A stretch of DNA of 64,000 nucleotides from an uncultured Pelagibacteraceae bacterium (lineage in GTDB: Bacteria > Pseudomonadota > Alphaproteobacteria > Pelagibacterales > Pelagibacteraceae), in contig CACOWO010000002.1 of the NCBI GenBank assembly GCA_902630925.1, positions 55,445-119,444 of the forward strand, in the 5' to 3' direction. Shown piece after piece: positions 20,207-60,256 of the stretch. The notes under the pieces were generated by a model. That model saw only the letters and a program-made list of their open reading frames with translations. It made no database searches and was not told the origin of the DNA. How positions within the stretch are numbered: position 1 is the first letter of the stretch; each line of letters opens with the position of its first letter. The translations under genes and the position numbers were made by a program.

Positions 20207-20329
20207 TTATAAATAATCTGAATTAGTTTTTTTTCTTTTAAAACTTCCTTTACCCTTTTTTGGTTTGATAACCCTTTTCCTATACTTAGTCGTAAAAAGA
20301 TCTTTTGCTATCTTGTTTCTTTTTTTCAC
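20207..20329 (-). CDS. ArfA-like alternative ribosome-rescue factor, 40 aa (not in ORF track; GTG start)
   Basis: Minus-strand VKKRNKIAKDLFTTKYRKRVIKPKKGKGSFKRKKTNSDYL*; matches the remembered ArfA core LFRQRVEKNKKGKGSYMRK; GTGA overlap with upstream stop. Confidence 0.75.
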   Translation of the reverse strand: MKKRNKIAKDLFTTKYRKRVIKPKKGKGSFKRKKTNSDYL

Positions 20330-22051: not shown

Positions 22052-22624
22052 ATGTTTACTAAAAAAAATAAATATTTTTTATTTATAGAAAGTATCAAAG
22101 ATATAAGTTTAGAAAACATAAAAATACGAAATAAATTTTCAATAATTTATCGAAATACTAAAAAAGCAGAAGATTTAAACAATCTTCTTAAATTTAGGCG
22201 ATATTGCAAGTTAAAAGCGATAAAATTTTATATAGCTAACAATTATCAACTTGCTGCTTCATTAAACGCTGATGGAATTTATTTATCCTCCTTTAATAAA
22301 AGTCTCGCTAGTTTATTTTATAGAAAAATAAATTTTAAAGTAATCGGATCTGCACATAATTTTAGAGAAATAGCCTTAAAGAAAAAACAAGGTTGTTCTT
22401 TTGTTTTATTATCTAAATTGTTTATGGTTGATTATGATAAAAAAGCTCCCTACTTGGGAATTTTAAAGTTTAATAACTTCTCAAAAATTTCTGGAAAGCT
22501 GATACCCCTTGGTGGAATAAATACAAATAATTTAAACTCTTTAAGAAATGTGAGTTGTGAAGGATTTGCATTATTATCTGAGGTAAAAAAAAAGCCGGCT
22601 AAAATTTTTAGCCGGCTTTTTTAA
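22052..22624 (+). CDS. Divergent thiamine-phosphate-synthase-like (ThiE/TenI) protein
   Basis: ADGIYLSSFN...VIGSAHNFREIALKKKQGCSFVLLSKLF...IPLGGINTNNLNSL barrel-type signature; several positions diverged. Confidence 0.6.
   Translation: MFTKKNKYFLFIESIKDISLENIKIRNKFSIIYRNTKKAEDLNNLLKFRRYCKLKAIKFYIANNYQLAASLNADGIYLSSFNKSLASLFYRKINFKVIGSAHNFREIALKKKQGCSFVLLSKLFMVDYDKKAPYLGILKFNNFSKISGKLIPLGGINTNNLNSLRNVSCEGFALLSEVKKKPAKIFSRLF
22594..22617. terminator. Bidirectional intrinsic terminator between thiE-like gene and porin
   Basis: AAAAAAGCCGGCTAAAATTTTTAGCCGGCTTTTTT; GCCGGCTaaaa/ttttAGCCGGC stem with T tracts on both strands. Confidence 0.93.
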
Positions 22625-22646: not shown

Positions 22647-23735
22647 CTAGAACGCCATTTCTACTGTAAATACAGTGTCTTTAACGTCTTTGTTAGTTGT
22701 GTATGAAGCATTCTCGTGATCGTTCATTGCCACACCTAAAGTCATACCACCCATTGTGTACGAAGCTTGGATACCTGTTGACTCCATAGTGTACTGAGTT
22801 GTAGCTTTTTTCTGTGTTTTTGGCTCTGACTCTTCTTGCTCATAAGAAATTGATAAGTTGTCATTTACGTTAATACCGATTGAGTATTTAGTATTTTCAA
22901 CTGTTTCAACTTGCTCTGTTGCGATTGAGCTCAATGCTAATGCAGCGTACGATTTGCTGTAACCAATTACTGCTGGTCCAACTGCGTATGTTGCATAGTA
23001 AGCGCCTGATTCAGGTGCTTGATCTGTTGCTCCGATTACTCCACTGAATTCTATGTAGTCGGCACCTAATGTTAAACCGTCAACCATTGGAACTTCAGTC
23101 ATTTTTACTTGGTAATGCGTCGCACTATCTCCACCACCATCTAAAGTGATTCCACCTGCAGATGCTGTATCTGGAGTAGCTACTCTGTCGTTCACAGCTC
23201 CTGATTTCAATGCATCTTCAGCAGTAGATCCTGCTGCGTCTGGTGTGTAACCAACTTTAAATGTTACACCATATGGCAATAAACCAGCTGGTGTGTGGTA
23301 TTGAACGTTATCAAAACCATCGATGTCGAATGTATCTGTCATCGCTTCTGCGTATGAAGTATCAGATGGTCTAGCTACTACTGATTGAGAACCAGCGTTA
23401 TCTACACCTAATCCACCTTCACCTAAGAATACTCCAAATGTACCAATTGGAGTTCCGACAGCTAATTTAGCGTCATCGTTTGTTGCACTTGACTCCACAG
23501 TATCGATATCAACTGCGTAAGACCATGTGAAACCGTTATCTAACTCACCGCTAGCACCTAAGGTAAATTCGTTCTCAATACCTAATTGTGGTGTAGCGTT
23601 TGAAGCTGCAGCAGTTCCATCAGATGATGTAATTGCATACGAAGCTTTTGCTGTACCAGTTACAGTTAATTCACCAGCTTTTGCTACGCCGAATGAAAAT
23701 AACACAACTGACAACAATGCTATTAGTTTTTTCAT
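22647..23735 (-). CDS. Outer-membrane porin
   Basis: Signal peptide MKKLIALLSVVLFSFGVAKA; beta-rich; terminal FTVEMAF; strong terminator follows. Confidence 0.8.
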   Translation of the reverse strand: MKKLIALLSVVLFSFGVAKAGELTVTGTAKASYAITSSDGTAAASNATPQLGIENEFTLGASGELDNGFTWSYAVDIDTVESSATNDDAKLAVGTPIGTFGVFLGEGGLGVDNAGSQSVVARPSDTSYAEAMTDTFDIDGFDNVQYHTPAGLLPYGVTFKVGYTPDAAGSTAEDALKSGAVNDRVATPDTASAGGITLDGGGDSATHYQVKMTEVPMVDGLTLGADYIEFSGVIGATDQAPESGAYYATYAVGPAVIGYSKSYAALALSSIATEQVETVENTKYSIGINVNDNLSISYEQEESEPKTQKKATTQYTMESTGIQASYTMGGMTLGVAMNDHENASYTTNKDVKDTVFTVEMAF

Positions 23736-58348: not shown

Positions 58349-58376
58349 AAAAAAAAAGGGGCGAAAAAATCGCCCC
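58349..58376 (-). terminator. Intrinsic terminator downstream of SSS symporter
   Basis: GGGGCGA-aaaaa-TCGCCCC (58358-58376) with T tract on minus strand at 58357-58349. Confidence 0.9.
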
Positions 58377-58399: not shown

Positions 58400-60256
58400 T
58401 TAGTGTTGCTTACCAAGAATAGCCTTACCTGTAGGTATTCTTGTATCGTCTACCATTTTTTGTACAGCTGGACTTGGTTCTTTAGTCATTAAACTAACTA
58501 CAACCATTACAACTAAACAAATTGGTGCACCGATTAAACCAAATCTTAAGTGGTCAATACCTAAGAATGGAGTATTTACACCACCGAATATTGGTACAGA
58601 GAATTTAGGGAACACCCACAATAAGTATAATGTTCCTGAAGCAATTCCCGCTACAATACCAGCGATAGCACCTGCTCTAGTAGCTCTCTTCCACCATACA
58701 CCAAGTACAAGTGGGAAGAACAAGCCTGACATTGCAAAGTCGAATGCCCAAGCAACCGAACCTAAGATACTTGTTAGCCTGAAAGAGGCTATGTAAGCAC
58801 CAGCAGCTCCGATTATTACTAGAAGTACACGAGCAACTAAAAGTCTTTTAGCTGTATCAGCTTTTGGATCTATGATTTTGTAGTAAATATCATGAGATAA
58901 AGCATTTGATATCGCTAACACAAGACCGTCAGCAGTTGACATGGCAGCAGCCATACCTCCAGCAAACACTAGTCCAGAGATTACAAACGGTAGTCCCGCT
59001 ACTTCTGGAGTAGCTAATACTACAACGTCACCTCTCATGAACCATTCGTTCAACTGAAGTATACCGTCACCATTAAAGTCTGCGATAAACACTTGTTTAA
59101 CTTCAGACCATCTTTGTACCCATTCTATTGACTGAACTTCAGAAATAGATTTTCCGATAATTCCAGTTGGTAGATTTGGATCCATCAATGCCAACTTAGA
59201 CAATGTCGCTAACATAGGCGCTGAAGAGTATAGTAAGAAAATAAAGAATAGCGACCAAGCTACTGATTTTCTTGCTGCTCTAACAGAAGGAGTTGTAAAG
59301 TATCTCATTAAGATATGAGGTAACGATGCAGTTCCTACCATCATACAAATCGCTAACGATAAGTATTTCCAGACAGCCATTCCACCTTCAGGTACTCCAG
59401 AGTGAGTTCCAGAGATGTATTTCAATCCTCCTGGTACTCCAGCTGCTTTCATATCTGCGGCGCTGTTTTTAACTAGTCCAAATTGTTGTTCAAGTTCACC
59501 AAGTCTTGCAACCTCATCACCTAACATTAAGTGAGGGAAAATTCCTCCACCTACGTTTGAACTGATCCAGAATACTGGTATCAAGTATGCGATGATTAAT
59601 ACAATGTACTGTGCAACCTGAGTCCAAGTTACTGCTCTCATTCCTCCAAGCATTGAACAGATAAGAATACTTATTAATCCTACCCATACTCCTGCTTCGA
59701 ACGGAATACCAAGAGCTCTAGAAGCAATTGTACCCGTAGCATTAATTTGTGCAGTTACGTAAGTAAATGATGCTATGAAAAGCACAAATACAGCGCAAGC
59801 TCTTACGAGATTACCACCGTATCGTGTTCCGATAAAATCAGGAACTGTGTAACATCCAAACTTTCTTAGGTACGGAGCCATTAAAGTTGCAACAAGTACG
59901 TATCCACCTGTCCAACCTACTAAGAAAGCCATATAAGTATAGCCACCAAAGTAAACTCCACCCGCTAAAGCTACGAATGAAGCACCTGACATCCAGTCAG
60001 CTGCTGTTGCCATTCCGTTAAATACGGTAGGCACTTGTCTTCCTGCAACATAGTAGGCATCTACTTGTATGGTTCTTGATAAATAACCGATTAAGGCATA
60101 AATCAAAACCGTGAAAGCCACAAACATCACTCCGATGTTTTTAGCTGACACACCAGCTTGTTCCGCAATAGCCATCAAAATGATGAATACTATGAAACCG
60201 CCTGTGTAGGTCCCGTATATTTTAGGAAGGTTTTTTATAAAATCTCCTTTAAACAT
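58400..60256 (-). CDS. Sodium:solute symporter family protein (acetate permease/VC_2705-like)
   Basis: 12-13 TM SSS protein; partner DUF4212 subunit upstream; acsA nearby. Confidence 0.88.
   Translation of the reverse strand: MFKGDFIKNLPKIYGTYTGGFIVFIILMAIAEQAGVSAKNIGVMFVAFTVLIYALIGYLSRTIQVDAYYVAGRQVPTVFNGMATAADWMSGASFVALAGGVYFGGYTYMAFLVGWTGGYVLVATLMAPYLRKFGCYTVPDFIGTRYGGNLVRACAVFVLFIASFTYVTAQINATGTIASRALGIPFEAGVWVGLISILICSMLGGMRAVTWTQVAQYIVLIIAYLIPVFWISSNVGGGIFPHLMLGDEVARLGELEQQFGLVKNSAADMKAAGVPGGLKYISGTHSGVPEGGMAVWKYLSLAICMMVGTASLPHILMRYFTTPSVRAARKSVAWSLFFIFLLYSSAPMLATLSKLALMDPNLPTGIIGKSISEVQSIEWVQRWSEVKQVFIADFNGDGILQLNEWFMRGDVVVLATPEVAGLPFVISGLVFAGGMAAAMSTADGLVLAISNALSHDIYYKIIDPKADTAKRLLVARVLLVIIGAAGAYIASFRLTSILGSVAWAFDFAMSGLFFPLVLGVWWKRATRAGAIAGIVAGIASGTLYLLWVFPKFSVPIFGGVNTPFLGIDHLRFGLIGAPICLVVMVVVSLMTKEPSPAVQKMVDDTRIPTGKAILGKQH

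Follow-up and report, generated by a model that had tools for sequence, protein, structure and literature searches.

The window, the whole stretch of 64,000 nucleotides (64 kb) that was analysed, belongs to a Pelagibacteraceae (SAR11) genome of 818 kb that is 72% complete. Its plus strand carries an open reading frame with a TMP-TENI Pfam match (E = 1.8e-12, residues 23–177) and a C-terminus reading ...GAGGTAAAAAAAAAGCCGGCTAAAATTTTTAGCCGGCTTTTTTAA. This ThiE/TenI-like frame converges with a porin gene on the minus strand. The features of the locus and its surroundings are as follows.

20207–20329, minus strand: ArfA-like small ORF of 40 aa, placed outside the proposed mechanism (profile search against solved ArfA chains, best E = 2e-5)
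22052–22624, plus strand: ThiE/TenI-like coding sequence of 190 aa (ORF and Pfam match; 354 of the 397 family genomes searched gave a match)
22585–22593, minus strand: U9 tract of the porin-strand terminator, A9 on the plus strand (length 9 in 117 of 117 orthologs of the window's clade)
22594–22616, both strands: GC-rich stem-loop with a 10-bp core and a 3-nt loop, usable in either direction (sequence and fold; a hairpin in the corresponding position at 238 of the 255 loci)
22617–22622, plus strand: U tract, T6 (sequence; includes a four-fold degenerate site with just two changes on the tree)
22622–22624, plus strand: TAA stop of the ThiE/TenI-like coding sequence, occupying +6 to +8 counted from the stem (a stop codon in all 117 orthologs of the clade)
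22647–23735, minus strand: convergent porin gene, apparently the gene mainly served by the terminator (Porin_4, E = 3e-8)

The core stem-loop at 22594–22616 reads GCCGGCTAAA-ATT-TTTAGCCGGC, and the terminator encodes the final 12 residues (KKKPAKIFSRLF) of the ThiE/TenI-like protein. The TAA begins on the sixth and final T of the plus-strand U tract and is in frame with the ORF at 22052–22624. An earlier note on this DNA had placed a terminator within the 3′ end of this coding sequence and the stop on the last T of the tract, and both the sequence and the frame agreed with that description. The T tract of the other strand is longer (U9 vs. T6). The hairpin folded with −22.2 kcal/mol on the plus strand and −21.7 kcal/mol on the minus strand (z about −5.5 on each), and none of 200 shuffled sequences folded as well. 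When the full 64 kb was scanned stringently for six GC pairs with a U tract, only two hairpins emerged, this one and another at 58358–58376. Given both the fold, far better than that of the shuffles, and this rarity, the hairpin is not attributable to chance. With a weaker terminator pattern, the number of hits in the window was no higher than expected by chance. The other strong terminator (58358–58376, minus strand), again with U9, lies 3′ of a solute-symporter-like gene (58400–60256, minus strand), and its stem, GGGGCGA...TCGCCCC, is very similar to porin terminators found in relatives, L102, L105, L117 and L118 among them.

Orthologs of the ThiE/TenI-like gene were searched in the 397 family genomes, and 255 distinct orthologous 3′ ends were read, 117 of which constitute the window's clade; owing to shared ancestry, raw counts of these orthologs overstate their independence. 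The architecture of the window's clade, consisting of A9, a GCCGGC-type stem, five T-tract bases and the stop, was common to 117 of the 255 loci, and the overlap of the porin terminator with the end of the facing gene was kept in more than 100 species. A Pelagibacter record, HIMB058 (locus L041, corresponding in place to L020), also has this arrangement. Porins were recognised using an iterated profile, which recovered them at 13 loci where a single tblastn query had not. A porin and the hairpin occurred together at 237 of the 255 loci and were both absent at 16, whereas a porin without the hairpin was found only once, and one further locus was cut by a contig end (Fisher p = 3e-23, kinship ignored). 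An independent-pair test on the tree offered three pairs only, all of which agreed (3/3). Thus, 237 of 238 porin-bearing loci kept the hairpin, the exception being L121, the sole locus where the porin converges yet the stop has no hairpin within 150 nt. In the 16 porin-less relatives (including L166, L167, L171 and L176), the next gene was a long co-directional TPR-like ORF, and no hairpin was present.

The comparison also indicated which strand the hairpin serves. In the 8 bases following the stem, the T count was higher on the porin strand than on the plus strand in 237 of 238 hairpins, and non-Watson–Crick stem pairs corresponded to G·U on the minus (porin) strand in 68 cases and on the plus strand in three. 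The minus-strand stem was also more stable than the plus-strand stem on average within the window's clade. Stem pair 6 changed at least 26 times on the tree, with nearly all changes among CG, CA and TA, and TG was never observed. As CA on the plus strand is G·U in the porin-strand RNA, this pattern suggested that pairing has been kept in the porin transcript, although protein constraint (Ser and Asn being tolerated, Val less so) could explain part of the bias. Judged from the sequences compared, the hairpin is above all the terminator of the porin gene. The earlier proposal that the same hairpin, through its T tract on the other strand, serves the convergent porin gene was supported by the minus-strand U9 and by the way the hairpin tracks the porin across loci.

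Relative to the stem, the stop of the facing gene lay upstream at 60, inside the stem-loop at 28, 1–8 nt after it at 138 and beyond that at 12 of the 238 hairpin loci, and the upstream stops were mostly merged with the A tract. This stop-position class changed at least 46 times on the tree when the absence of a hairpin was counted as a class. A stop lying always within or past the U tract, a pattern raised in the earlier note, was therefore found only in part: it held in the window's clade, with the stop at +6 to +8 in every locus (TAA in 112, TGA in four and TAG in one), and failed among wider relatives, where the stop also occurred upstream of or inside the stem-loop. Within the 117 loci of the clade, the three stop columns had undergone zero, four and one changes, all variants being stops, whereas each of the next 21 columns had undergone 21–48 changes. 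The retention of the stop beside bases saturated with changes suggested that ribosomes use it, and translation appears to reach the stop often enough for selection to keep the codon. A T run ending in a stop was found in 117/117 loci of the window's clade vs. 45/60 loci where the gene's own stop is upstream and the T run precedes AA or AG (Fisher p = 2e-8, kinship ignored). However, a T run followed by AA was common after the stem even when it was not the gene's stop (44/60 loci with upstream stops and 22/28 with the stop in the stem-loop). Our claim of selection on the stop is therefore restricted to the excess over this control, and part of the conservation may have another cause than selection as a stop.

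The plus-strand T tract also showed constraint. Its second base (U2), the four-fold degenerate third position of a Leu codon, changed twice on the tree vs. 27–47 times at upstream third positions, implying that the tract is constrained beyond the protein. This constraint fits termination on the plus strand, but could also reflect A–U pairs that extend the porin-strand stem. Intrinsic terminators release RNA 7–9 nt after the stem (PMC8060035). The stem ends 5 nt before the stop, which at +6 to +8 straddles this expected release window, and plus transcripts released there should consequently contain either the complete stop codon or its first two bases. Mature 3′ ends have a median position of +5 in Escherichia coli and Zymomonas, probably via trimming (PMC12207403), and trimmed plus transcripts of the ThiE/TenI-like gene may lose the stop. 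A non-stop fraction among these transcripts is plausible from the spacing. The earlier note had predicted non-stop mRNA from the plus strand. Its prediction survives insofar as the stop is completed at +8, inside the +7 to +9 release window, such that some transcripts may lack a full stop; as the purpose of the arrangement, non-stop mRNA found no such backing, given that hairpin and porin occur together, that the wobbles suit pairing in porin-strand RNA and that the stop is conserved.

We consider it likely that the convergent porin gene has this element as its intrinsic terminator (stem and U9 on the minus strand), that the facing ThiE/TenI-like frame is overprinted on it, and that it probably ends plus transcripts as well. 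The facing gene's frame would have extended into the porin terminator in SAR11 genomes. In the window's clade, the frame would then have crossed the A9, the stem and the T tract before taking the first stop met past the hairpin, with TAA presumably formed by the last T of the tract and the AA that commonly follows. The hairpin and T6 probably also stop plus-strand transcription, near +7 to +9, which is where the stop codon ends or one base earlier. A minor share of plus transcripts would thereby lack a full stop and might be cleared by the general rescue machinery (tmRNA/SmpB). Both the termination in two directions and the minor non-stop share are predictions.

Whether the hairpin acts on the plus strand at all depends on translation. 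Trailing ribosomes suppress terminator hairpins (PMC5021804), and, by analogy, a translating ribosome on the plus strand would interfere with this one. The hairpin might accordingly end porin transcripts only, being held open by the ribosome on the plus strand while ThiE-like transcripts continue into porin antisense and end translation at an ordinary stop. The T-richer minus tract and the more stable minus stem described above are consistent with such one-sided use. Nevertheless, it appears rather unlikely, as the plus T tract is constrained at U1–U4, the four-fold degenerate site included, and a stem this strong followed by T6 would be expected to terminate transcription if few ribosomes are present. 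The same interference weighs against the opposite proposal, that most ThiE-like mRNAs have their 3′ end in the U tract, short of the stop, and that tmRNA tagging or ArfA release sets the protein level, as for arfA: once at the stop, a ribosome coupled to transcription would sit over the hairpin and impede termination. This proposal could draw on the completion of the stop three bases past the median mature end, on the presence of tmRNA, SmpB and an ArfA-like gene, and on the 12 relatives in which more than 8 nt separate stem and stop. Three of these (L215, L274 and L287) carry T5 directly after the stem and have the stop 12–13 nt past it, which makes their types the best candidates for real non-stop messages. 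No avoidance of a good plus-strand U tract was seen among these 12 loci, a small set, of which eight had at least five T in 8 nt, like the other classes. However, purifying selection strongly keeps the stop codon as a stop, the hairpin tracks the porin, stops upstream of or inside the stem in many relatives indicate that non-stop ends are not a conserved feature, and the ThiE/TenI-like gene does not encode a rescue factor. A predominantly non-stop message is thus improbable. There is a similarly slim chance that the stop is held exactly in the release window to leave a set share of messages 1–2 bases short of a full stop, which would tie the level of a thiamine-pathway-like protein to rescue capacity (tmRNA, ArfA-like).

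The coding tail itself offers another possible target of selection, with the hairpin as a by-product of the peptide KKKPAKIFSRLF. The tail is recognisable in 117 loci. However, its codons hardly vary: Lys is AAG in 117/117 loci, and the stem codons for Arg (CGG in 117/117) and Pro (CCG in 116/117) show zero and one synonymous change, respectively. Moreover, hairpin-encoded tails vary with the sequence of the hairpin (KKKGPISRAF, KKTAPKRGR and others besides that of the window's clade), indicating that the tail is overprinted on the terminator; lineages with an upstream stop do without it. Selection of the tail as a peptide is barely credible and was rejected on the codon invariance and on its absence from lineages with an upstream stop.

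Bidirectional intrinsic terminators between convergent genes were reportedly described by Ju et al. in 2019. The locus has the sequence features of this type, i.e., convergent genes (ThiE/TenI-like on plus, porin on minus), T6 on the plus strand, U9 on the minus strand and a strong fold on both. Such terminators are also known between convergent genes in Zymomonas mobilis (PMC7566282). As in those systems, one GC-rich hairpin stands between the genes and its leading A tract is the U tract of the other strand; unlike there, one of the two genes contains the hairpin within its 3′ coding sequence, and the element finishes on that gene's stop codon. In other bacteria, transcripts end at medians of 37–91 nt after the coding sequence (PMC12207403). 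Among the papers searched for terminators overlapping stop codons, no direct precedent was found. In E. coli arfA and Bacillus subtilis brfA, a stem-loop or terminator before the stop yields non-stop mRNA (PMC8012679), and the present element is comparable in that its stem-loop, also located in 3′ coding sequence, could end the transcript before a full stop. However, here the stop lies within the U tract and is strongly conserved, the facing gene is the main owner of the element, and the product is a TMP-TENI family protein rather than a rescue factor. The earlier note had invoked arfA as a precedent, from which the present case differs: arfA encodes a rescue factor, its stem-loop precedes the stop, and its non-stop mRNA gives a working product (PMC8012679). 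Regulation through non-stop mRNA, as in arfA, was not supported for this gene. A report on Bacillus cereus describes compensatory evolution of intrinsic terminators (PMC5381666), and stem pairs here likewise change with pairing kept. What differs from the case described there is that the direction of the wobbles shows which strand's RNA is selected, inside the coding sequence of another gene.

The locus represents a clear natural case of one DNA stretch with two simultaneous duties, strong termination on one strand and completion of a coding frame on the other, and it has been retained throughout a genus of marine bacteria that are very abundant. The series of stop positions (upstream, loop, stem base, U tract and beyond) provides a comparative set for asking how near the transcript end a stop may lie before messages become non-stop. 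The same series could be used to probe whether the extent of gene overlap in streamlined genomes is held down by rescue load.

The host genome encodes tmRNA and SmpB. An ArfA-like ORF about 2.3 kb from the terminator, as claimed in the earlier note, was indeed present at 20207–20329 on the minus strand; reading its nearness as a mechanistic hint is meaningless, since rescue factors act in trans, and nothing but nearness suggests a relation between the two. The ORF is conserved, its own profile matching 85 of 118 Pelagibacteraceae genomes in 11 of 14 genera. A survey reported no arfA in 2,376 Alphaproteobacteria (PMC11633108), and an ArfA of a pelagiphage has been reported (PMC12753301). In 21 Pelagibacterales genomes, the PF00472 matches lay in frames of RF1/RF2 size, with one in a far longer open frame, and no ArfB-sized protein was seen among them; the ArfA-like protein may therefore be the sole alternative to tmRNA there. 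At its start, the ArfA-like ORF shares bases with the end of a gene for an OmpR-type DNA-binding protein.
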